Source: Kineococcus xinjiangensis
GTDB taxonomy: Bacteria; Actinomycetota; Actinomycetes; Actinomycetales; Kineococcaceae
Direction of reading: 5' to 3'
Assembly: GCF_002934625.1 (NCBI RefSeq)
Contig: NZ_PTJD01000010.1
Location: 1 to 64,000 of the forward strand
DNA: 64,000 nucleotides
Below are positions 33,385 through 45,752 of this stretch, piece by piece (within the stretch, counting starts at the first letter, position 1; the number at the start of each line of letters is the position of its first letter). A program made the position numbers and the translations under genes. The notes under the pieces were generated by a model that saw only the letters and a program-made list of their open reading frames with translations, made no database searches and was not told the origin of the DNA.

Positions 33385-35754
33385 TCAGTGCTTCCGGGCG
33401 GAACCCCTGTCGTCGCCGTTGTCCTGGTCGGCCAGGAACGAGGACACCCAGGACAGCGGGGCGTTCCAGTTGACCGTGATCTCGTTGGTCGACCAGGAGC
33501 CGATGTCGTCGATGAAGCAGAGCTGGGCCGCCGTCGCGCACTGCTCCTGCAGGTGCTTCAGGGCGATCGGGTCGCCGGTGGCCAGCGCGGTGGAGTTCGG
33601 CCCGCCGGAGACCGTGCCGGCCGGCGGGTTCGGCAGCGAGGGGTCGACCTGGTTCGCGTACATCCGGGAGTGCTGGTTGCGCACGTCCACGTCGCCGTAG
33701 CCGGTGATGTACGAGAGGTTCAGCGCGTTGCGGCCCAGGAGGTAGTCCATCGAGCGGACCACCGCGTCGCGGTAGCGCGTCTCACCGCTGAGGTCGAAGG
33801 CCGTCCCCAGCACCTGCATGTTGTTGAGGACCTGGGCGTTCGAGCCCCAGACGTAGTTCCCGTCCCCGGGGGCGTAGGCCTGCCCGAACGGCTGGGCGGC
33901 CTGGTCCGCGAGGTAGCGGTCGGCGGCTGCCAGCACCGACGCCCGCGCCCGGCGCAGCTCGGCGGTGTTGAGGCGGCTCGGGACGGTGGCGAGGTCCATC
34001 CGGGCCAGCGGCGCGACGTGGCCCCAGTCGAAGCCGCCCGGCCCGAACACGTCGGCGGTGTGCACGGGGGAGCGGAGGACGTCCTTGCGGAACTGCGGCT
34101 CACCGGTCGTCAGGTACAGCTCGACGGCGGCCCAGTAGAACTCGTCGGACACGTCGCGGTCGTTGTACGGGCCGCTGCCGGGGTTGGGGTCCAGGGCGCC
34201 GTCGGGAGCCGGGGCGTAGAGCGCGGGGTTGGCCTGCGCCGCGGCGTAGGCGGTGCGCGCCGCCGCCAGCAACCGCTGCGAGAACTCCTCGTCGTAGGGC
34301 GCGAACAGCCGGGCGCCCTGCGCGGCGGTCGCGGCGACGTTCAGGGTGGCGGCGGTGGAGGGCCGGTAGAGCACGCGCTCCTGCGGGTCGTCGGCCGGGG
34401 CGAGCGGCAGGCCCGTCCAGTCCACGTCGGCGACCTTGTGGAAGACCATGCCCTCCAGCGGCCGGCCCGGCTGGACCTGCATCTTCAGGAACCACTCCAG
34501 CTCCCAGCGCGCCTCGTCGAGCAGGTCGGGCACGCCGTTGCCGGCCTCGGGGATGCGCAGGGTGCCGTCACCCAGGGCGCCGCGGTCGGCGGTGGGGGCC
34601 GTGAGGCTGCGTTCGTACTCCTGCATCAGCTGCGCGACGGCGATGCCGCCGTTGACGACGTACTTGCCGTGGTCGCCGGCGTCGTACCAGCCGCCGGTGA
34701 CGTCGCTGGTGTAGTCGCACGTCCAGGGCTCGTCACCCTGTCCGACCAGCAGCTCCTGCGAGTCGTCGTCGAGGCGCTGGCAGGGCACGGCGGTGTCGCC
34801 GGTGTTGGGCGCGACCCCGACGTGGCCGGCCTCGCGGCCGTAGCCGGGGACCAGGGCGTCGGAGATCGCGATGCCGCTGCGGTTGGTGTGGAAGAACGTC
34901 TTGGAGTCGTCGCGCAGGCGCTCGTAGGCGGCGGCGCCGATGTCGAACGGGTGGCTGGTCTCCCCGTCCGCGGTGAGCGTGAAGCCGGTGCCGGCGCTCC
35001 GGTGCCCGCCGAAGTCGATGGTGTGGACGTTGAGCGCCGCGGTGGGGTCGACGCCGCGCGGGGTGGTGGTGCCGGTGGCGACGACCCTTCCCGAGCCGTC
35101 CCGCAGCTGCCAGGGCAGCGCGGACGTGGAGTCGGTGACCAGCGTGGCGCCCTTGGGTCCCTGCGGGAGGTAGGTCTCCTGGTTGACGCGGACGCGCGGG
35201 CCGGTGTCCGGCTGGTACTGCGGCGCCTCGGCCCCGCCCTCGAGGACGACGTCGTCGACGCAGATCGTGTAGGCGACGGGGTTGGTGATGTCCTGCTGGA
35301 TGGCGAGCTGGGCGGTCAGGGAGCGCGAGGCCGTGAAGAAGAACTCGTGCTCGCCGAAGGCCTCGGTGAACGTGGGCTTCTCCGCGGGCAGGAACTGCTC
35401 GTAGGAGCCGCCGTTCTCCTGGACCACGACGCGGACGGGGCCCTGGATCTGCGGGGTGCTGCGGGCGCGGAAGCTCAGCCGGTACTCCTCGCCGGCGACG
35501 AGGGGGACGTCCTGCTGGATCGCGGCGCTGTAGGGGCCGCTGCCCGCCGGCACGGTGTTGCAGCCCGCGCCGTCGAGGACGGAGGGGTTCGGGTAGATCG
35601 TCCATCCCGCGGTGCCATCGCTGAAGTCCCCGTTGGTGATCTGGTCCGCGGCGAGCGCCGGGGTGGGCGCGAGGACCAGGGCGGAGGGGACGAGCAGAGC
35701 GGTGGCCGCGGTGAGGGCGCCGGCGCGGCGCTTCCGGTGGTGGTTGAGCGGCAC
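33385..35754 (-). CDS. Secreted GH9 cellulase with CBM4-like and Ig-like domains
   Basis: 789 residues from a GTG preceded by AGGAGGA. The signal peptide covers about residues 1-35 (LLVPSALVLAPTPALA). A CBM4/9-like carbohydrate-binding domain follows (QITNGDFSDGTAGW), then a CelD-N-type Ig-like domain (VRVNQETYLPQGPKGATLVT). The GH9 catalytic barrel shows GGWYDAGDHGKYV with the catalytic aspartates and, near the end, NEITVNWNAPLSW with the acid Glu. It should hydrolyse beta-1,4-glucan outside the cell. A CebR/CelR-like operator overlaps its 5' region, predicting induction by cello-oligosaccharides. No other cellulase gene is nearby. Confidence 0.93.
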   Translation of the reverse strand: MPLNHHRKRRAGALTAATALLVPSALVLAPTPALAADQITNGDFSDGTAGWTIYPNPSVLDGAGCNTVPAGSGPYSAAIQQDVPLVAGEEYRLSFRARSTPQIQGPVRVVVQENGGSYEQFLPAEKPTFTEAFGEHEFFFTASRSLTAQLAIQQDITNPVAYTICVDDVVLEGGAEAPQYQPDTGPRVRVNQETYLPQGPKGATLVTDSTSALPWQLRDGSGRVVATGTTTPRGVDPTAALNVHTIDFGGHRSAGTGFTLTADGETSHPFDIGAAAYERLRDDSKTFFHTNRSGIAISDALVPGYGREAGHVGVAPNTGDTAVPCQRLDDDSQELLVGQGDEPWTCDYTSDVTGGWYDAGDHGKYVVNGGIAVAQLMQEYERSLTAPTADRGALGDGTLRIPEAGNGVPDLLDEARWELEWFLKMQVQPGRPLEGMVFHKVADVDWTGLPLAPADDPQERVLYRPSTAATLNVAATAAQGARLFAPYDEEFSQRLLAAARTAYAAAQANPALYAPAPDGALDPNPGSGPYNDRDVSDEFYWAAVELYLTTGEPQFRKDVLRSPVHTADVFGPGGFDWGHVAPLARMDLATVPSRLNTAELRRARASVLAAADRYLADQAAQPFGQAYAPGDGNYVWGSNAQVLNNMQVLGTAFDLSGETRYRDAVVRSMDYLLGRNALNLSYITGYGDVDVRNQHSRMYANQVDPSLPNPPAGTVSGGPNSTALATGDPIALKHLQEQCATAAQLCFIDDIGSWSTNEITVNWNAPLSWVSSFLADQDNGDDRGSARKH

Positions 35755-35769
35755 GTGGTTCCTCCTCGT

Positions 35770-35783
35770 TGAGAGCGCTCTCA
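35770..35783. promoter_or_regulatory. CebR/CelR-like operator of the GH9 gene
   Basis: TGAGAGCGCTCTCA is a perfect 14-bp palindrome 15 bases upstream of the cellulase GTG. It differs symmetrically at one position per half-site from the known CelR/CebR site TGGGAGCGCTCCCA of Thermobifida and Streptomyces. Its position just 5' of the Shine-Dalgarno would block transcription when bound. Confidence 0.75.
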
Positions 35784-35828
35784 CGAGCGCTGGGAGGAAG
35801 CGTGCGTCGTCCGTGGCGGGATTGTCAA

Positions 35829-35842
35829 TGTGAGCGTTCACC
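35829..35842. promoter_or_regulatory. Second LacI-operator-like site in the GH9/cyclase intergenic region
   Basis: TGTGAGCGTTCACC contains the near-palindrome GTGAGC-GTTCAC. It shares its first ten bases with the complement of a site upstream of the dehydrogenase gene (50443-50456). It sits between the divergent GH9 gene and the first diguanylate cyclase gene. Motif evidence only. Confidence 0.3.
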
Positions 35843-35939
35843 GATCGACGCCCGCCGGCACCCCTCCCGCTACAGGAGCGCGCCGCCGCGGCCGATGTCC
35901 TGTGAGGACCGCGAACCACCCAGGACGGAGGGACGACCC

Positions 35940-37598
35940 GTGTTCCTCTGGCAACCCTGGGCGCTGCTCCTCGCGGCCGCGTCCCTGGCCTCGCTCCTCG
36001 CCGCGCAGGCCACCTGGCGACGGCGCCACGAGACCTCCGCCGTGGCGGCGCTCTCGGTCGTGATGCTCGGCACCTGCCTGTGGTCCGGCGCCAAGGCCCT
36101 CGGCCTCAGCCTCGCCTCGATCGAGGCGCAGATCCTCATGGGCGTCGTCGCCTACCCCGGCATCTGCGCCGTCGTCCTCGGCTTCTTCTGCCTCGCCCGC
36201 GCCATGTGCGACCGGCGCTGGACCTGGCGGTGGAACCGCGACGGCCTCCTCGCCATCGCGTTCGTCGTCCTCTTCGCCCTCCTGGCGACGAACCGCTGGC
36301 ACAACCTGGTCTCCAGCAACCGCCGCCTCGAGGGCGACCCGCCCAAGCTCCGGTACGACCCCGAGGTCCTCTTCTGGGTGCACACGCTCTACAGCTACGC
36401 GCTGCTGGCCTGCGCCCTCCTGCTCCTGCTGCGGGGCGCCCTGCGCGTCTCCCGCGCCCACCGCGCCCGCTTCGTCTGGCCCGTCATCGGCGGCCTGGTC
36501 CCCATCGCGGGAAACGTCCTGAACATCTTCGTCCTACCGGATCTGCCCGTGGACCCCGCACCCATCCTCTTCCTCATCACCGCCCTCATCTGCCTGTGGG
36601 CGCTGACCCGCTCCGTCACCCCCGACGTGCTGCCCATCGCGCTGCCGCAGGTCGTCGCCGCCATCGGCGACTGCGTGGCCGTCGTCGACCGGCGCGGGCG
36701 CATCCTCGAGGCCAACCCCGCCGCCGACGCCTTCCTCCGCCGCACGGCCCGGCGGCGCAGCGGGCCGCAGGCGGTCCCGGCGCGGCTGGAGGGCACCGTC
36801 CTGCAGGAGCTCACGGGGCCCCTCGGCTTCGAGTTCGACCCCTCCGCCCCGCAGGAGCGGACCCTCGACCTGCCCGACGACGGCGTCGTCCTCGACGTGC
36901 ACACCTCCCCGCTGACGGACAACCGGGGCACCTGCATCGGCTGGGTCCTCGTCGCCCGCGACGTCACCGCCGCCCTGCGCCAGCAGCAGGAGGTGCTCGC
37001 CGCCAACGAGGCCCTGCGCGAGCAGCTCGACCTCGTGGAGCGGCTGCGCGCGGAGCTGGCCGAGCAGGCCGTCCGGGACCCCCTCACCGGCCTGTTCAAC
37101 CGCCGCAAGCTCGTCGAGATGCTCCACCGCGAGGTGCCCGAGCGCCTCGCCGCGGGGGATCCGGTGAGCCTGCTGATGATGGACGTCGACAAGTTCAAGG
37201 GCGTCAACGACAACCACGGCCACGCCGTCGGCGACGCCGTCCTCATCGGGATGGGCCGCGCCCTGAGCGTCGGCATCTGCCCGCGCGAGCTGCTGGCCCG
37301 CTACGGCGGGGAGGAGTTCGTCATCGTCCTGCCCGGCGTCGGCGCCGCGGAGGCCAGGGAGCGGGCGGAGGAGTGGCGCGCGCGGTGCGCCCTCGTCGAG
37401 GTCGACGGCGCCGCCGGGACCAAGGTCTCCACCACCATGAGCATCGGCCTGGTGACCGCCACCGCGGGTTCGCCGGTGGAGGTCGAGCACCTCCTCGCCA
37501 CCGCCGACGCCGCCCTCTACGAGGCCAAGGCGAGCGGCCGCGACCGCGTCGTCACCGGCCGCCTGCAGCCCGCCGCGGTGCAGCCGGCCGGGGCCTGA
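35940..37598 (+). CDS. 7TM-PAS-GGDEF diguanylate cyclase, array member 1
   Basis: 552 residues from a GTG with GGAGGG upstream. Residues 1-~220 are a seven-helix membrane sensor of the histidine-kinase N-terminal 7TM type (NRWHNLV, FWVHTLYSYALL). A PAS domain follows (~225-343: VAAIGDCVAVVDRRGRILEANPAA, IGWVLVARDVT), then a 35-residue coiled-coil linker (36969-37073) and a GGDEF domain with RDPLTGLFNRRK and active site RYGGEEF (Gly456). The residues six to nine before it are C-P-R-E, so there is no RxxD inhibitory site. It should make c-di-GMP. Its GGDEF half is almost identical in DNA to that of the next gene. Confidence 0.93.
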   Translation: MFLWQPWALLLAAASLASLLAAQATWRRRHETSAVAALSVVMLGTCLWSGAKALGLSLASIEAQILMGVVAYPGICAVVLGFFCLARAMCDRRWTWRWNRDGLLAIAFVVLFALLATNRWHNLVSSNRRLEGDPPKLRYDPEVLFWVHTLYSYALLACALLLLLRGALRVSRAHRARFVWPVIGGLVPIAGNVLNIFVLPDLPVDPAPILFLITALICLWALTRSVTPDVLPIALPQVVAAIGDCVAVVDRRGRILEANPAADAFLRRTARRRSGPQAVPARLEGTVLQELTGPLGFEFDPSAPQERTLDLPDDGVVLDVHTSPLTDNRGTCIGWVLVARDVTAALRQQQEVLAANEALREQLDLVERLRAELAEQAVRDPLTGLFNRRKLVEMLHREVPERLAAGDPVSLLMMDVDKFKGVNDNHGHAVGDAVLIGMGRALSVGICPRELLARYGGEEFVIVLPGVGAAEARERAEEWRARCALVEVDGAAGTKVSTTMSIGLVTATAGSPVEVEHLLATADAALYEAKASGRDRVVTGRLQPAAVQPAGA

Positions 37599-37717
37599 CG
37601 ACGCCTCCCCGGCGATCGCCCGACGGGGCGTCACGGACTACAGCACGGCCCCCCGCCCGTCGATGACCCAGCGAGGACCCCGCCCGGCGGGGCGCGACGG
37701 TGGGAAGGTGGTGCGCG

Positions 37718-39403
37718 ATGCTGCAGTGGCAGCCGCTGGCCCTGCCCTTCGTCGCCGCCGCGATCGCCTCCCTCCTCGCCGCCCGCATGGTCTGGCGGCG
37801 CCGGCAGGAGACCCCGGCCATCGCGGCCCTCGTGGTGACCATGCTGGGCCTGGCGCAGTGGTCCGGCACGACCGCCATCGGGATGAGCGGCACGACCCTG
37901 CGGATGCAGGCGTTCTTCCTCGACGGGATCTACCCCGGCGTCTGCGCGGCGGTGGCCGGGATCTTCTGCCACGCCCAGGCCATGGCGGACCGCCGGTGGA
38001 CGTGGAGCCCGCGCCGGTACTGGTGGCTGTTCGTCGAGCCCGTCTTCATCGTGGTCTCGGTCGCCACCAACCCCTGGCACCACCTGTTCCGCGACGGCTA
38101 CCAGCTGGTCGGCGAGCCGGCGGGACTGCGCTCGATCCCCGGACCGCTGTTCTGGATCCACACCTACTACAGCTACGCCCTGCTGGGAGCCGCCGCGTTC
38201 CTGCTGCTGCGCGGGGCCTGGCGGGCATCCCCCGTGCACCGCCGCCGGTTCGTCTGGCCGGTCCTCGGCGGCCTCTTCCCCGCCGTCGGCAACGTCCTCA
38301 GCGTCTGGATCATGCCGCACGGGCGCAGCGTCGACCTGACGTCGATCTTCTTCCTCGCCACCGCAGGCGCCTTCTGGTGGGCGCTGCAGCGCTCCGCCCT
38401 CCCCGACGTGCTGCCCGTCGCCTTCGGCCACGTCGTGGAGACCATCGACGACGCCGTCCTCGTCGTGGACCGCCGCCACCGCATCGTCCAGCTCAACCCC
38501 GCCGCCGAGGCCCTCCTGCGCCGGGCCGTGCCCGACGCCCCGCGACAGCTCGTGGGGGAGGAGCTGCCCGAGCCGGTGGCGGAGCTGCGCCTGCCGCTGG
38601 ACGAGGCCGGGCGCGGGCAGCGCGTGCTGCGGCTGGCCGCCGCGGAGGTCGACGTCGACGTGCGCACCGCCCCCCTCACCGACGCCCGGGGGATCTGCAT
38701 CGGCTGGGTGCTCGTCGCCCGCGACGTCACCGAGTCGCTGCGGCTGCGCCGCGCGATGGAGCACCAGCAGGCGGAGCTGGAGCGGCAGCGGGCCGAGGCC
38801 GTCGCCGCGAACGGAGCGCTGCACCAGCAGCTGGAACTGGTGGAGCGGTTGCGTCGGGAGCTGGCCGAGCAGGCCACCCGCGACCCGCTGACCGGCCTGT
38901 TCAACCGCCGCAAGCTCGTCGACGTCCTCCAGCGCGAGGTGCCCGAGCGCCTCGCCGCGGGGGATCCGGTGAGCCTGCTGATGATGGACGTGGACCGGTT
39001 CAAGGGCGTCAACGACACCCACGGCCACGCCGTCGGCGACGCCGTGCTCATCCGGATGGCACAGGCCCTGTCGCCCGGCGTGCGCCCGCGCGAGCTGCTG
39101 GCCCGCTACGGCGGGGAGGAGTTCGTCATCGTTCTGCCCGGCGTCGGCGCCGCGGAGGCCAGGGAGCGGGCGGAGGAGTGGCGCGCACGCTGCGCCCTCG
39201 TCGAGGTCGACGGCGCCGCCGGGACCAAGGTCTCCACCACCATGAGCATCGGCCTGGTCACCGCCGACGGCGGCGCCGTGGTGCGCGTCGAGGAGCTGCT
39301 GGCCGCCGCCGACGCAGCCCTCTACGAGGCCAAGGCCGGCGGCCGCGACCGCGTCGTCACCGCCGGCCCCCGCTCCCGCGCGCAGCAGCCCGCCATCGCC
39401 TGA
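37718..39403 (+). CDS. 7TM-PAS-GGDEF diguanylate cyclase, array member 2
   Basis: 561 residues from an ATG preceded by GGGAAGG. The layout is that of member 1: 7TM sensor beginning MLQWQPLALPF, PAS (VVETIDDAVLVVDRRHRIVQLNPAA), a 49-residue linker (38732-38878) and GGEEF active site at ~465. The preceding residues R-P-R-E are an incomplete I-site. The sensor and PAS halves match member 4 closely, while the GGDEF half matches member 1, so the gene appears to be a recombinant. The 119 bp before it contain no gene; the spacing suggests separate promoters or a loose operon. Confidence 0.93.
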   Translation: MLQWQPLALPFVAAAIASLLAARMVWRRRQETPAIAALVVTMLGLAQWSGTTAIGMSGTTLRMQAFFLDGIYPGVCAAVAGIFCHAQAMADRRWTWSPRRYWWLFVEPVFIVVSVATNPWHHLFRDGYQLVGEPAGLRSIPGPLFWIHTYYSYALLGAAAFLLLRGAWRASPVHRRRFVWPVLGGLFPAVGNVLSVWIMPHGRSVDLTSIFFLATAGAFWWALQRSALPDVLPVAFGHVVETIDDAVLVVDRRHRIVQLNPAAEALLRRAVPDAPRQLVGEELPEPVAELRLPLDEAGRGQRVLRLAAAEVDVDVRTAPLTDARGICIGWVLVARDVTESLRLRRAMEHQQAELERQRAEAVAANGALHQQLELVERLRRELAEQATRDPLTGLFNRRKLVDVLQREVPERLAAGDPVSLLMMDVDRFKGVNDTHGHAVGDAVLIRMAQALSPGVRPRELLARYGGEEFVIVLPGVGAAEARERAEEWRARCALVEVDGAAGTKVSTTMSIGLVTADGGAVVRVEELLAAADAALYEAKAGGRDRVVTAGPRSRAQQPAIA

Positions 39404-39528
39404 GGCGCACGGGCGCAACCCGTGTGACCCTGCTACAGGCCCGGGCCCCCGGTGCCGATGTGCCAGACGAGGTGGCCGGCGCGGCCACGACGCAACGCTG
39501 CCCCGGGCAGCGGGAAGGGAGGGGCGCG

Positions 39529-41190
39529 GTGCTCGTCTGGCAGCCCTGGGCGGTTCTGTTCCTCGCCTCGACCATCGGCTCACTGCTCGCCGCGCGCGTC
39601 ATCTGGCGCCGCTGCGGCACCTCGCCCGCCGCCGTCGCCCTCGTCGTGCTCGTCCTGGGTGCCGCGATGTGGTCCGGGATGCGGGGCGTCGGGATGCTCT
39701 TCGGCAGCCTGGCGATCCAGTCCGTCTTCAGCGTCCTGATCTACCCCGGGGTCTGCGCCGTCGTCCTCGGCCTCTACTGCCACGCCCGGGCGCTCACCGA
39801 CCGGCGCTGGACCTGGAACTGGCGCCGGCACTGGTGGCTGCTGATCGAGCCGGTCCTCTGCGTGGTCGTCGCGCTGACGAACTCCACCCACCAGCTCTTC
39901 CGCGTCGGCTACCGCCTCGAGGGCGACCCGCCGATCCTCGCCTCCGAGGGCGGGCCGCTCTTCCAGATCCACACCTACTACAGCTACGCGCTGCTGGGGG
40001 CGGCCTTCTTCGTCCTCCTGCGCGGGGCCTTCCGGGTCTCCGCCGCCCACCGCGTCCGGTTCGTGCTCCCCATCGTGGGCGGCCTGTTCCCCACCGTAGG
40101 CAACATCGTCAGCGTGATGATCATGCCGGAGCTGCCGGTCGACCTCACCTCCGTGCTCTTCCTCGCCACCGCCGCCATCTGCGCGTGGGCGATGTACAAC
40201 TCCGCCCTGCCCGACGTGCTGCCCGTCGCGCTGAGCCAGGTCGTCGCCACCATCGGCGACGCCGTGCTCGTCGTCGACCGCAAGCAGCGCATCGTCGAGC
40301 TCAACCCCGCCGCCGACACCCTGCTGCGCTCCCTCGCCCCGCAGGCGCCCGCCAAGCTCGTCGGGACCTCCCTGCGCGACCTCGCCGACCCGATGGGGCC
40401 CAGCCCCCGCACCGCCGGCCCCGAGCAGCGGACCCTCGCCGTCGAGGAGCTCGACCTGCACCTCGACCTGCGCACCGCGCCGCTGACGGACTCCAAGGAC
40501 GCCTGCATCGGCTGGGTGCTGGTCGCCCGCGACGTCACCGAGTCCCTGCGCCAGCGAGCGGAGCTGGAGCGCCAGCGCGCCGAGGCCGTCGCCGCCAGCG
40601 ACGCCCTGCGCGAGCAGCTCGACCTCGTGGAGCGGCTGCGCCGGGAGCTGGCCGAGCAGGCCACCCGCGACCCGCTGACCGGGCTGTTCAACCGCCGGCG
40701 CATGGTGGAGTTCCTCTCCCGGGAGGTGCCCGACACCCTCGCCGCCGGCCGCCCCGTGAGCCTGCTCATGATGGACGTCGACAAGTTCAAGGGCGTCAAC
40801 GACAACCACGGCCACGCCGTCGGCGACGCCATCCTCATCGGCATGGCGGCCGCGCTGTCCGAGGACCTGCGCGCCGGGGAGCTGCTGGCCCGCTTCGGCG
40901 GCGAGGAGTTCGTCCTCGTCATGCCGGGTGTCGGCCTGGAGGAGGCCCTCGCGCGCGCCGAGGTCTGGCGCGCCCGGTGCGCGCAGGTCGAGGTGGAGGG
41001 CGCCGGTGGGGCGACGGTGCGCACGACCATGAGCATGGGCGCCGCCGGGCTGCTGCCGGGCGCCCGGGTGCCCGACACCAACGGGCTGCTCGTCGCCGCC
41101 GACGGTGCGCTCTACGCCGCCAAGGCCGGTGGCCGCAACCGGGTGGTCTCCAGCGGTGTGCTCACCGAGCAGGTCGCCGCCGCGCACTGA
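39529..41190 (+). CDS. 7TM-PAS-GGDEF diguanylate cyclase, array member 3
   Basis: 553 residues from a GTG preceded by GGGAAGGGAGG. The 7TM sensor resembles member 1 most (VLVWQPWAVLFL, YPGVCAVVLGLYCHARAL). PAS has VVATIGDAVLVVDRKQRIVELNPAA. The linker is 42 residues (40540-40665). The GGDEF domain has RFGGEEF near 457, preceded by R-A-G-E, again not a full RxxD. The most divergent GGDEF tail of the first three (AAGLLPGARVPDTNGLLVAADGAL) argues that this copy is older. Sensor ligand unknown. Confidence 0.93.
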   Translation: MLVWQPWAVLFLASTIGSLLAARVIWRRCGTSPAAVALVVLVLGAAMWSGMRGVGMLFGSLAIQSVFSVLIYPGVCAVVLGLYCHARALTDRRWTWNWRRHWWLLIEPVLCVVVALTNSTHQLFRVGYRLEGDPPILASEGGPLFQIHTYYSYALLGAAFFVLLRGAFRVSAAHRVRFVLPIVGGLFPTVGNIVSVMIMPELPVDLTSVLFLATAAICAWAMYNSALPDVLPVALSQVVATIGDAVLVVDRKQRIVELNPAADTLLRSLAPQAPAKLVGTSLRDLADPMGPSPRTAGPEQRTLAVEELDLHLDLRTAPLTDSKDACIGWVLVARDVTESLRQRAELERQRAEAVAASDALREQLDLVERLRRELAEQATRDPLTGLFNRRRMVEFLSREVPDTLAAGRPVSLLMMDVDKFKGVNDNHGHAVGDAILIGMAAALSEDLRAGELLARFGGEEFVLVMPGVGLEEALARAEVWRARCAQVEVEGAGGATVRTTMSMGAAGLLPGARVPDTNGLLVAADGALYAAKAGGRNRVVSSGVLTEQVAAAH

Positions 41191-41357
41191 CGTCCTCGTC
41201 GTCCTCCCGCAGGGGCGGGACGGCGCACGCCCCGCCCCACTACCCTGCGCACGGCTGCACCCGCCGTGCGCGGGCCCCGGGCAGCTCCCACCTCAGGCGG
41301 CTCGCGCCTCGGGCGGCAGAAGACCGGGCAGCGCGGACGTGAGGGAGGTCGGAGCGG

Positions 41358-42956
41358 ATGTTCCAGTGGCAACCGCTGGCCCTGCCCTTCGCCGCGGCCG
41401 CGATCGCCTCCCTGCTCGCCGCCCGGATCATGTGGCGGCGGCGGGAGGAGACCCCCGCCGTCGCGGCCCTGGTCGTGACCATGCTGGGCCTGGCGCAGTG
41501 GTCCGGCACGACCGCCATCGGGATGAGCGGCGCGACCCTGCGGATGCAGGTCCTCTTCCTCGACGCCATCTACCCCGGCGTCTGCGCGGCCGTCGCGGGG
41601 GTCTTCTGCCACGCGCTGGCCATGTCGGACCGCCGCTGGGCCTGGAGCTGGCGCCGGCACTGGTGGCTGCTCGTCGAGCCGGTGCTCATCGTCGTGGCGG
41701 TGGCCACCAACCCCTGGCACCGCCTGTTCCGCGACGGCCACCAGCTCGTCGGCGACCCGGCGGGACTGCGCTCGTTCCCCGGGCCGCTGTTCTGGGTGCA
41801 CACCTACTACAGCTACGCCCTGCTGGCGGCTGCCGCGTTCCTGCTGCTGCGCGGGGCCTGGCGCACCTCCCGCGTCCACCGCCGCCGCTTCCTCTGGCCC
41901 GTCCTCGGCGGCCTGGCCCCCGCCGCGGGCAACGTCGTCAGCGTCTGGCTCCTCCCGCACGGTCGCAGCGCCGACCTGACGTCGATCTTCTTCCTGGCGA
42001 CGGCCGGTGCCTGCTGGTGGGCGCTGCAGCGCTCCGCCCTGCCCGACGTGCTGCCCGTCGCCTTCGGCCACGTCGTGGAGACCATCGACGACGCCGTCCT
42101 CGTCGTGGACTGCCGCCACCGCATCGTCCAGCTCAACCCCGCCGCCGAGGCCCTCCTGCGCCGGGCCGTGCCCGGCGCCCCGCGACAACTGGTCGGGATG
42201 GAGCTGCCCGAGCCCGTCGCCGGGCTGCGCCTCGCCCTCGACGAGAGCGCCCGCGGCCAGTGCACGCTGCGGCTGGCCCAGGGCGGCCTCGCGGAGGGCA
42301 CCGACGTCGACGTGCGCGCGACGCCGCTCACCGACGCCCGCGGCGCCTGCATCGGGTGGGTGCTCGTCGCCCGCGACGTCACCGAGTCGCTGCGCCTGCG
42401 GCGGGAACTGGCCGAGCAGGCCCTGCGCGACCCGCTGACGGGGTTGTTCAACCGCCGCCGGGTGGTCGAGGCGCTGGAGGAGGAGGTGCCCGCCGCCCTC
42501 GCCGCCGGCCGGCCGGTCAGCGTGCTGCTCGCCGACGTCGACCGGTTCAAGGCCGTCAACGACACCCACGGCCACGCCGTCGGCGACGCCCTGCTCGTCG
42601 CGATGGCCCGCGCCCTCACCGGCGGGGTGCACCCCGGGGACCTCCTGGCCCGCTTCGGCGGGGAGGAGTTCGTGGCCGTGCTGGTGGGCGTGGACCTGGG
42701 GGAGGCTCTGGAGCGGGCCGAGGACCTGCGCCGCCGCTGCGGCGCGGTCGAGGTGCCCGGCGCCGACGGCGCCCGCGTGCGGACGACCATCAGCGTCGGG
42801 GTCGCCGGCCTGCCCGGCGGGGCGTCGGTCGACGCCCCCTCCGACCGGCTCCTGTCCACCGCCGACGCCGCCCTCTACGCCGCCAAGGCCGGCGGCCGCG
42901 ACCGCGTCATCACCCGCAGGGTCCGCTCCTACGTCGAGCTCCCCGCGCCCCGGTGA
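41358..42956 (+). CDS. 7TM-PAS-GGDEF diguanylate cyclase, array member 4
   Basis: 532 residues from an ATG after GAGGGAGG. The 7TM and PAS regions closely match member 2 (MFQWQPLALPF, MLGLAQWSGTTAIGMSG). The coiled-coil between PAS and GGDEF is reduced to 14 residues (42384-42425), compared with 35-49 in the other members, yet still an exact multiple of seven. The active site RFGGEEF is intact (~434), and the preceding H-P-G-D lacks the I-site arginine. It ends 37 bp before the convergent response-regulator gene. Confidence 0.93.
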   Translation: MFQWQPLALPFAAAAIASLLAARIMWRRREETPAVAALVVTMLGLAQWSGTTAIGMSGATLRMQVLFLDAIYPGVCAAVAGVFCHALAMSDRRWAWSWRRHWWLLVEPVLIVVAVATNPWHRLFRDGHQLVGDPAGLRSFPGPLFWVHTYYSYALLAAAAFLLLRGAWRTSRVHRRRFLWPVLGGLAPAAGNVVSVWLLPHGRSADLTSIFFLATAGACWWALQRSALPDVLPVAFGHVVETIDDAVLVVDCRHRIVQLNPAAEALLRRAVPGAPRQLVGMELPEPVAGLRLALDESARGQCTLRLAQGGLAEGTDVDVRATPLTDARGACIGWVLVARDVTESLRLRRELAEQALRDPLTGLFNRRRVVEALEEEVPAALAAGRPVSVLLADVDRFKAVNDTHGHAVGDALLVAMARALTGGVHPGDLLARFGGEEFVAVLVGVDLGEALERAEDLRRRCGAVEVPGADGARVRTTISVGVAGLPGGASVDAPSDRLLSTADAALYAAKAGGRDRVITRRVRSYVELPAPR

Positions 42957-42993: not shown

Positions 42994-43656
42994 TCAGCCG
43001 GGGCGGACGAGCCCCGTCTCGTAGGCCAGCACCACGGCCTGGACCCGGTCGCGCAGCCGCAGCTTCATCAGCACGTTGCTCACGTGGGTCTTCACCGTCG
43101 TCTCCCCGAGGACGAGGTGCTCGGCGATCTCGGCGTTGGACATCCCCCGCGCGACGAGCAGGAGCACCTGGCGCTCCCGCTCGGTCAGCGCGGCCAGCCG
43201 GTCCGCCGGGGGGACGGCCGAGGCCGACGGCAGGTGCTGGGCGAAGCGGTCGAGCAGGCGCCGGGTGACGGCCGGGGCCACGATCGCCTCCCCGCGGTGC
43301 ACGACCCGCACGGCCGCGACGAGGTCGTCGGTGGGCACGTCCTTGAGCAGGAAGCCGGACGCCCCGGCGCGCAGCGCCTCCACCACGTACTCGTCGTGGT
43401 CGAACGTCGTGAGCACGAGCACGCGGGGGCCGTCCCCGCGCGCGGTCAGCCGCCGGGTGGCCTCGATGCCGTCCATGCGCGGCATGCGGATGTCCATGAG
43501 CACCACGTCCGGGCGCAGCGCCTCCACCTGGCTGAGCGCCACCGCGCCGTCGGCGGCCTCGCCCACGACCTCCAGGTCCGGCTCGGAACCCAGCACCATC
43601 GCGAAGCCCGTCCGCAGCAGCGGCTGGTCGTCGACGAGCAGCACCCTGATCGTCAC
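42994..43656 (-). CDS. NarL/LuxR-type response regulator
   Basis: 220 residues: receiver domain (VLLVDDQPLLRTGF, phospho-Asp in VLMDIRMPRMDG, the LLKDVP segment) and C-terminal LuxR HTH (LTERERQVLLLVARGMSNAEIAEHLVLGETTVKTHV). Its GTG overlaps the TGA of the upstream kinase gene (GTGA), so the pair is coupled. It probably controls the neighbouring ABC exporter or kinase genes, as is common for this operon type, but no binding site can be named. Confidence 0.95.
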   Translation of the reverse strand: MTIRVLLVDDQPLLRTGFAMVLGSEPDLEVVGEAADGAVALSQVEALRPDVVLMDIRMPRMDGIEATRRLTARGDGPRVLVLTTFDHDEYVVEALRAGASGFLLKDVPTDDLVAAVRVVHRGEAIVAPAVTRRLLDRFAQHLPSASAVPPADRLAALTERERQVLLLVARGMSNAEIAEHLVLGETTVKTHVSNVLMKLRLRDRVQAVVLAYETGLVRPG

Positions 43657-44879
43657 CGCGGGCTCCCCGCCGGCGCCGAGGTGGGCAGCACGGCGCGCAG
43701 GAGGTAGCCGCCACCGCCGCGGGGCCCCGCCTCCACGCTCCCGCCGTAGGACGCGACCCGGTCCCGCAGCGCCAGCAGCCCCACCCCGGCCGCGGACGCC
43801 GTCCCCCACGCGGAGGCGCCGCGGCCGTCGTCGGCCACCTCCACCTCCAGCCGCCCGTCGCGCCCGTGCAGCAGGACCCGCACCCGCGCCGGCCCGGCGT
43901 GGCGCTCGGCGTTGGCCAGCGCCTCCTCGACCACCCGGTACGCGGCGAGATCCGCACCGGTGTCCAGGACCACGTCCTCCCCGTCGCGGGTGAGCTCCAC
44001 GTCCAGGCCCCGGCCCCTGGCCGCCGCGACCAGGTCGGGCAGGTCCTCCAGACCGGGCTGGGGACGGCTGGGGGCCTCCTCCACGCCGAGCACCCCGAGG
44101 ACGCGGCGCACCTCCTGCACGGCCGAGCGACCCAGCCGCTCGACCTCCACCAGCGCCCGCTCGGCGGCCTCGGGATCGCGCCCGAGGACGCGGCGCGCGG
44201 CGCTCGCCTGCACCGTCATCGCCATCACGCCGTGCCCGACGACGTCCTGCATCTCCCGCGCCACGGCGCTGCGGGCGTCGGCCAGCGCGGCGCGCGCCTG
44301 GGACTCCCGCGCCGCGAGGAGGGCCGCGTTGCGCTCCTCCAGCCCCCGCACGTACTGCGCGCGGCTGCGCGACCACGCCCCGGCGCCCCAGACGAGCGCG
44401 ACGCCCAGCGCGTTGGCGAGGACGTCCGCGAGGCCGAAGCCGTAGGGGGCCGTCAGCAGCAGGACCGTGAGCGCCAGCGCGGTGAGCAGGGCGGTGGGGA
44501 TGCTGGTGCGCCGGGAGGTGAGCGCGGCGACGGAGTACAGGCACAGCAGGGCGCCGAGGCCGCCGTTGACCTGGAGGTGGCCGAGGGCGGGGGCGGCCAG
44601 CGCCGCGGGCAGCGCCAGGGCCAGCGCCGCCACCGGAGCGCGGGAGCGCACGGCGACGGGAGCCGCGGACAGCACCGCCAGGGCGTAGGCGAGCGCGTCC
44701 GGCTCCCGCCCGCCGATGATGCTGGTCATCGCCCCGCTCATCAGGCCGCCGACGCCCACGGCCACCAGGACGACCGCCAGCGCGGCGTCCAGGGCCACGG
44801 GCGGCTGCAGCGCCCAGCGCCGCCAGCGGGCGTCGGCGTCCGCGCCGTGCGCGCCGGCTTCCTCGTCCACGTCGTCCAC
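43653..44879 (-). CDS. Membrane sensor kinase of the NarL family, phosphoacceptor His replaced by Gln
   Basis: 408 residues from a GTG. An N-terminal membrane domain has about six helices (~25-165), then a dimerisation helix and an HATPase domain (VVEEALANAERHAG, VEVADDGRGAS, GVGLLALRDRV). In HisKA_3 kinases the phosphoacceptor is the His of the E-[LIM]-H-D motif. Here the motif reads AREMQDVVGHGV, with CAG at 44247-44249 (Gln211). The ATP-binding residues look intact, so it may bind ATP but not autophosphorylate in the usual way. It is paired with the response regulator and divergent from a soluble kinase with an intact His. Confidence 0.92.
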   Translation of the reverse strand: MDDVDEEAGAHGADADARWRRWALQPPVALDAALAVVLVAVGVGGLMSGAMTSIIGGREPDALAYALAVLSAAPVAVRSRAPVAALALALPAALAAPALGHLQVNGGLGALLCLYSVAALTSRRTSIPTALLTALALTVLLLTAPYGFGLADVLANALGVALVWGAGAWSRSRAQYVRGLEERNAALLAARESQARAALADARSAVAREMQDVVGHGVMAMTVQASAARRVLGRDPEAAERALVEVERLGRSAVQEVRRVLGVLGVEEAPSRPQPGLEDLPDLVAAARGRGLDVELTRDGEDVVLDTGADLAAYRVVEEALANAERHAGPARVRVLLHGRDGRLEVEVADDGRGASAWGTASAAGVGLLALRDRVASYGGSVEAGPRGGGGYLLRAVLPTSAPAGSPR

Positions 44880-44933
44880 GGTAGGCGGCGAGGTGATCCG
44901 CCCGACTCCTCCTCCAGGAGGAACCCGCGCGGC

Positions 44934-44939
44934 TACGCT
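44934..44939 (+). promoter_or_regulatory. -10 element of a leaderless kinase gene
   Basis: TACGCT ends six bases before the GTG at 44946, the spacing expected when transcription begins at the start codon. Confidence 0.55.
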
Positions 44940-44945
44940 CGGACG

Positions 44946-45752
44946 GTGGCCGACCTGGGGATCGTCCCGGTCCAGCCGACGCTCGGTCCGGACGGCGACG
45001 CGCGCCCGGGCGAGGCCGTGCCCGTCACTGCGACCACCGCGGTGCCCGTCGCTGCGACCACCGTGCAGCGGGCCGCCGAGGCCGCGGCCACCGCCGAGCG
45101 CCGCCGCATCGCCCGCGAGCTGCACGACTCCGTCAGCCAGGCCCTCTTCGTCCTGCACCGCCGCGCGGAGGTCGTCGAGCGGGCCCTCGACGCCGGCGAC
45201 GAGACGACGCTGCGGGCTGCCGCCGCCGGCCTGCGGGAGGTGTCGCAGCAGGCCATCGACGAGCTGCGCGCCGTGCTGGGGGACCTGCGCTCGGCCGAGG
45301 CGCCGGCCCAGGGCTTCGGGGCCGCCCTGAGCGCGCTGGCCCGCTGGGTGCGCGACACCCACGAGCTGCCGGTGCTGGTCGAGGTCGGCGCCGACGCCGA
45401 CGCGGCCGTGGCGGGGCTCGGCCCCGAGGCCGCCCGGCACCTGCAGCGGCTCGTGGGGGAGGCCCTGCACAACACCGTCAAGCACGCCCGTGCCTCCGGG
45501 GTCCTGGTGCACGCCGCGGTCGAGCACGGCGGCCCCGGGCGCTGCCTGGTCGTGGGGGTCAGCGACGACGGCTGCGGGTTCCCGGAGCCCGCCCGGCCGG
45601 ACCCGGCCGAGACCGCCGCCGGGCGGGGCCACGGGCAGCAGACGATGCGGGAGCGGGCCCGGCTGTGCGGGGGGCACCTCGCCGTGGACAGCGCAGCGGG
45701 GGAGGGGACCCGCGTCGTGGTGCGGATCCCCCTGCCTGGCGAGGGCCGCTGA
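44946..45752 (+). CDS. Soluble NarL-family histidine kinase
   Basis: 268 residues with no membrane segment. After a ~45-residue disordered N-terminus comes the HisKA_3 dimerisation domain with ERRRIARELHDSVSQALF (His60) and an HATPase domain (LVGEALHNTVKHARA, VSDDGCGFP, GRGHGQQTMRERA). There is no evident sensor domain, so its input may be a protein partner. It is divergent from the membrane kinase that lacks the His (66 bp between starts) and convergent with the ABC permease. It could supply phosphoryl groups to the same response regulator. Confidence 0.9.
   Translation: MADLGIVPVQPTLGPDGDARPGEAVPVTATTAVPVAATTVQRAAEAAATAERRRIARELHDSVSQALFVLHRRAEVVERALDAGDETTLRAAAAGLREVSQQAIDELRAVLGDLRSAEAPAQGFGAALSALARWVRDTHELPVLVEVGADADAAVAGLGPEAARHLQRLVGEALHNTVKHARASGVLVHAAVEHGGPGRCLVVGVSDDGCGFPEPARPDPAETAAGRGHGQQTMRERARLCGGHLAVDSAAGEGTRVVVRIPLPGEGR

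Follow-up and report, generated by a model that had tools for sequence, protein, structure and literature searches.

The window, a 64,000-nucleotide stretch of Kineococcus xinjiangensis DNA, contains four tandem genes at positions 35940-42956 of the plus strand, each coding for a seven-transmembrane (7TM) sensor (HisKA_7TM, PF16927) followed by a PAS and a GGDEF domain. All four proteins scored over the curated Pfam cut-offs in the order HisKA_7TM, PAS, GGDEF, and the active-site motif GG(D/E)EF is intact in each of them, as GGEEF. By domain order and intact motif they are 7TM-PAS-GGDEF putative diguanylate cyclases. The genes are separated by 119, 125, and 167 nt. The RxxD motif of the product-inhibition site (I-site), whose usual place we take to be before GG(D/E)EF, is altered in all four, to CPRE, RPRE, RAGE, and HPGD in genes 1 to 4, respectively; RxxD was present at this place in 31 of the 60 homologues described below (among the matches listed). 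Directly upstream of the array lies a divergent glycosyl hydrolase gene, and genes for a two-component system converge on its 3' end (Table 1). The whole 4.6-Mb genome contains 100 GGDEF matches, fragments among them.

Table 1. Features of the four-gene array and its surroundings (positions in the window).
Feature	Position	Strand	Basis
Family 9 glycosyl hydrolase (cellulase type), CelD_N + CBM_4_9	33385-35919	-	
Gene 1: HisKA_7TM-PAS-GGDEF (GGEEF) protein, 552 aa, GTG start	35940-37598	+	ORF and Pfam
Gene 1 linker, 35 aa, 5 heptads	36969-37073	+	Residue count
Gene 2: HisKA_7TM-PAS-GGDEF, 561 aa; mosaic (gene-4-like sensor, gene-1-like cyclase)	37718-39403	+	Pfam, identities, trees, informative sites
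Gene 2 linker, 49 aa, 7 heptads; predicted single helix, residues 338-387	38732-38878	+	Count, AlphaFold2 model
Interval with the gene 2 mosaic switch	38738-38893	+	Informative sites
Gene 3: HisKA_7TM-PAS-GGDEF, 553 aa, GTG start	39529-41190	+	ORF and Pfam
Gene 3 linker, 42 aa, 6 heptads	40540-40665	+	Residue count
Gene 4: HisKA_7TM-PAS-GGDEF, 532 aa	41358-42956	+	ORF and Pfam
Gene 4 linker, 14 aa, 2 heptads; predicted helix, residues 342-356	42384-42425	+	Count, AlphaFold2 model
Altered I-sites, genes 1 to 4	37278-37289, 39083-39094, 40870-40881, 42630-42641	+	Motif reading before GG(D/E)EF
LuxR-type response regulator and HisKA_3 histidine kinase	42994-45677	-	

The linker between the PAS and GGDEF domains was counted from the first residue past the PAS-terminal RDVT up to the last residue before RDPLTGL. 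The initial annotation had reported that all four linker lengths are multiples of seven; our recount agreed, at exactly the coordinates claimed. It had also called the linker the most length-variable part of the array proteins, which was shown by their alignment, and the gaps among the four aligned linkers are whole heptads. In AlphaFold2 monomer models of the gene 2 and gene 4 products, the linker is predicted to form one continuous helix. Taken alone, the array makes a modest case, because the anchors were freely chosen and the genes are related: the chance prior is ca. (1/7)^3, one length being free.

One of the four genes is composite. At the nucleotide level, gene 2 is 89% and 88% identical to gene 4 in the 7TM and PAS parts, respectively, and 74% identical in the GGDEF part, while the corresponding values for gene 2 versus gene 1 are 65%, 66%, and 90%. 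Gene 2 is the sister of gene 4 on the sensor-half tree (SH-aLRT 99) and of gene 1 on the GGDEF-half tree (98). With 469 informative sites, the best single breakpoint was placed after position 38890, with a score reached by none of 2000 permutations; 284 gene-4-like and 46 gene-1-like sites lie to its left, and 111 gene-1-like and 28 gene-4-like sites to its right. To judge from these comparisons, gene 2 is a mosaic of the sensor of gene 4 and the cyclase of gene 1, joined at the linker or at its GGDEF end, a range set by the fact that positions 38738-38847 hold no informative site. The encoded sensors of genes 2 and 4 are 85% (7TM) and 86% (PAS) identical in amino acid sequence, and all other sensor pairs are 50-61% identical. 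An earlier suggestion that the array proteins respond to the same signal is thus plausible for genes 2 and 4 only.

Linker lengths modulo seven were tabulated for homologues from the Kineococcus genome, its family, order, and class, the sample being the matches listed (at most 30 loci per search; the larger searches scored the top 3 to 23 candidates of each genome). The linker was a multiple of seven residues in all 60 distinct full-length homologues counted among these matches; a scatter over the residues modulo seven, named beforehand as the outcome that would contradict the heptad rule, did not occur. Eight lengths were observed: 14 residues (5 homologues), 21 (4), 28 (8), 35 (31), 42 (2), 49 (6), 63 (3), and 77 (1). 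Parsimony on quick trees gave minimum counts of at least 16 length changes on the sensor-half tree and at least 19 on the GGDEF-half tree; repeat-templated steps of 14 residues are among them, so the changes are not fully independent draws. With 60 of 60 lengths in phase and at least 16 changes, the family-wide test is far stronger than the four-gene array. In 21 disjoint pairs of close homologues, linkers differed by 0 residues in 14 pairs, by 7 in one, by 14 in five, and by 35 in one; of the 25 control gaps that the same pairs show within their sensor and GGDEF regions (sizes 1 to 9), a single one was a multiple of seven. The linkers of 63 and 77 residues (L092, L080, L089, and L090) resemble runs of 14-residue repeats.

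A phylum-wide search yielded 17 measurable relatives among the matches listed, and all of them fit heptads (linkers of 14 residues in 14 of them, of 21 in two, and of 35 in one); two loci with no GGDEF domain downstream (L169 and L170) and three that are the array itself (L152, L171, and L173) were excluded. A linker of 14 amino acids was also found in all 16 of the other, non-7TM PAS-GGDEF proteins recognised in the Kineococcus genome. Because the homologues and these other proteins share the heptad rule, it is not peculiar to the array. Of what had been proposed at the outset, the coiled-coil phase constraint stood, while its being special to the array did not, since every measurable homologue obeys it and such constraints have been published elsewhere. 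An orthologous four-gene array was not found among the matches listed, in which the genus is represented by one genome and the nearest relative, G238, by one match. This match, a single gene from the same class and a different order, is the best relative outside the genome among the matches listed (631 bits). Since it scores well above the non-array homologues of the Kineococcus genome and family (400 bits or less, among the matches listed), its relation to the array hints at horizontal transfer.

Twenty-five rows were left out of the homologue count: 18 partial ORFs, L044, L055, and five low-scoring ORFs from other families. Most of the partial ORFs were truncated duplicates of genes already in the count; three separate genes among them (L042/L088, L093, and L062) also have 35-residue linkers. 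L042, from Planobispora longispora, is the same ORF as L088, and the two were treated as one; the contig profile search gave two relatives. In L044, a 16-nt run of N inside the linker makes its length unmeasurable (nominally 38 residues, not a multiple of seven). The GGDEF domain of L055, a homologue from G007, starts with DAPT instead of DxLT, and its linker, counted by eye, is 35 residues long. The same length was measured with a widened anchor in L041 (REIT) and L084 (RDTT). For the census of the Kineococcus genome, eight of the 100 GGDEF rows were left out as fragments or second halves of matches, and 70 ORFs were scanned. Motif matches at 41, 43, 47, and 53 residues (L142, L143, L108, and L132, respectively) were rejected and one at 14 residues (L101) was dropped, Pfam giving no PAS domain at these places. 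L004 (DCT, 14 residues) was left uncounted, and in L019 and L027, which have two matches per ORF, the one nearest the cyclase was used. The first motif was absent from 22 loci; a looser motif read 17 of these 22, none of which was judged to be PAS-ended. One of these 17, L129, has RDLT at 18 residues within a stretch that is GAF-like by eye. Among the 16 non-7TM proteins counted, the PAS domain was recognised by Pfam in all four that were run (L019, L027, L103, and L118) and by motif in the other 12.

The register of the linker was read backwards from the D of DxLT. Position a (-7, -14, -21, -28, and so on) carries large hydrophobic residues in 266 of 301 cells in the 60 homologues, and the Leu at -7 is invariant. 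Leu-11 (position d) occurs in 58 of 60 homologues, Leu/Val-17 (position e) in 50 of 55, and Ala-3 (e) in 54 of 60, next to Gln/Glu-4 (d), also in 54 of 60. Large hydrophobic residues fill no more than 66 of the 301 d cells and 54 of the 301 e cells when all heptads are taken together; because these positions are often polar, the sequence does not show a strong a/d repeat of the classical kind. Ala-3, Leu-11, and Leu/Val-17 resemble the ambiguous axxdexx repeat described for Rec-GGDEF proteins (PMC8041772). In gene 4, the -17 place sits in the RDVT that ends the PAS domain, N-terminal of the predicted helix. Judged by its length steps and fixed-phase position a, the array would belong among GGDEF proteins with heptad-discretised linkers.

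Very probably, the linker is a parallel dimeric coiled-coil signal helix whose phase is kept by selection acting on mutational changes in length. The linker helix would pair with its twin in the dimer and pass the PAS signal to both GGDEF domains. Gain or loss of whole heptads would preserve the angle between the PAS dimer and the cyclase dimer, while other lengths would rotate it and be lost. Length mutations would arise from tandem duplications, deletions between short repeats, and exchange between paralogues, with selection retaining multiples of seven. In the weakest step of this scheme, gene 4, with its 14 residues, would leak and respond modestly, and the longer linkers of genes 1 to 3 (35-49 residues) would hold their cyclases off more tightly. 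The dimeric coiled coil, the register switching, and the selection are what we infer from the data above. Non-heptad lengths need not always be fatal, since the tested PadC proteins with a -4 linker still respond (PMC9587094, in the parts available).

Slippage or unequal exchange in DNA with 21- or 42-nt repeats could yield whole heptads by mutation alone, without selection on phase, and traces of such events are present. In the L068 linker, 42 nt are duplicated in tandem, with 38 of the 42 nucleotides identical; its near relative L071 lacks this duplication. The gene 4 linker corresponds to the gene 2 linker minus 35 amino acids, agreeing at 13 of 14 residues, and the missing 105 nt are flanked by similar 11-mers (gene 2 linker offsets 9 and 114; 9 of 11 identical), the first of which matches the corresponding gene 3 copy at 11 of 11 positions. 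Five of the seven linker differences in close pairs are 14 residues, the offset at which self-identity of linker DNA is highest (0.499). However, self-identity at 7 codons is at background (0.382), and at 10 codons there is a peak near that at 14 (0.464), yet 10-residue steps were not seen among the homologue linkers, so slippage alone is insufficient to explain the heptad rule. The short-linker PAS-GGDEF proteins of the genome, all in the same phase, also argue against mutation alone, which we consider quite improbable. It looks as if repeats supply the length mutations and selection retains only multiples of seven. Common descent on its own, with the four lengths inherited from a few ancestral ones and the array silent on any constraint, agrees with the prevalence of 35-residue linkers among the matches listed and with a ten-member homologue clade that holds 35 throughout on the sensor tree. 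On the same tree, however, the four array genes group in a single clade that needs three or more internal length changes, and the sisters genes 2 and 4 are 35 residues apart. Given also the number of changes across the family and the fact that both trees contradict one old clade per length class, this explanation is extremely unlikely.

Tuning of the lengths after duplication, so that the cyclases would respond to one signal with graded basal activity or gain, is compatible with the coiled-coil explanation, and we regard it as less likely than not. In LOV-GGDEF proteins (LadCs), linkers of 14 residues go with ca. 15-fold activation and higher dark activity, and linkers of 28 with activation of over 10,000-fold (PMC10396304). 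Genes 2 and 4 combine closely similar sensors with linkers of 49 and 14 residues, and the other tandem 7TM-PAS-GGDEF sets met have equal lengths (28/28/28 on contig C1 of the Kineococcus genome, 28/28 in G003, and 35/35 in G146). Against tuning, genes 1 and 3 have unlike sensors; in genes 2 and 4 the cyclase domains diverge as well (65% identity in amino acid sequence), so that length is not the sole variable; and neutral drift among permitted lengths is expected to give the same pattern. By analogy, a different basal activity of gene 4 due to its linker length is plausible; leakiness is expected because short LadCs show higher dark activity, an extrapolation across sensor types. A bolder extension, fairly unlikely in our opinion, is that the array is a recombining kit, in which sensor and cyclase halves would be swapped between neighbours at or beside the linker and the heptad number would be a selected gain control, through which a single cell would read closely related signals at graded basal activities.

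The general heptad claim is already known, since it has been published for Rec-, PAS-, LOV-, and phytochrome-GGDEF proteins (PMC8041772, PMC10396304, and PMC9587094, in the parts available). The observation made here is real, ordinary in kind, and a useful natural test set; four lengths within one array, together with the mosaic gene 2, are locally notable. It extends the heptad rule to a membrane-sensor family of sensor-cyclase linkers. Two natural pairs offer themselves for study of the effect of heptad number: genes 2 and 4, with a similar sensor and linkers of 49 versus 14 residues, and genes 1 and 2, with a similar cyclase and linkers of 35 versus 49. A search of open-licence papers by title and abstract start did not find a description of such a tandem array with differing linkers. 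Outside the array, genome G290 has four linker lengths among six paralogues (among the matches listed).

The following comparison draws on the available parts of the cited papers. The S-helix (PMC1592074) is a helical segment of ca. 40 residues joining receptor and effector domains, and the array linker is likewise helical by prediction. In the LOV kinase YF1, linker variation showed that the response depends on heptads (reviewed in PMC6798134). In phytochrome-linked PadC proteins, 54% of linkers fall in steps of seven, 38% belong to a -4 class, and a +2 class also exists; as in the array, steps of seven prevail, and in PadC, length is linked to dynamic range (PMC9587094). No organism with PadCs of unequal linker length was seen by the authors of that paper, whereas the array alone has four lengths. 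LadC proteins share with the array a PAS-class sensor, the same anchors, and the same phase, the LadC count being ours plus 7, so that LadC lengths of 21 and 35 equal 14 and 28 here; unlike the array proteins, they have a light sensor without 7TM, and their two main length classes were compared between organisms (PMC10396304). Rec-GGDEF proteins such as DgcR and WspR, whose input is a receiver domain rather than 7TM and PAS, are like the array in their discrete lengths with steps of seven, in the Leu at position a, and in the ambiguous axxdexx last heptad before DxLT; PAS- and LOV-GGDEF linkers are said there to have been reported to behave likewise (PMC8041772). The same authors tied the axxdexx ambiguity to a register switch and considered it worth seeking in PAS-GGDEF proteins, a question left open by them to which the array speaks.
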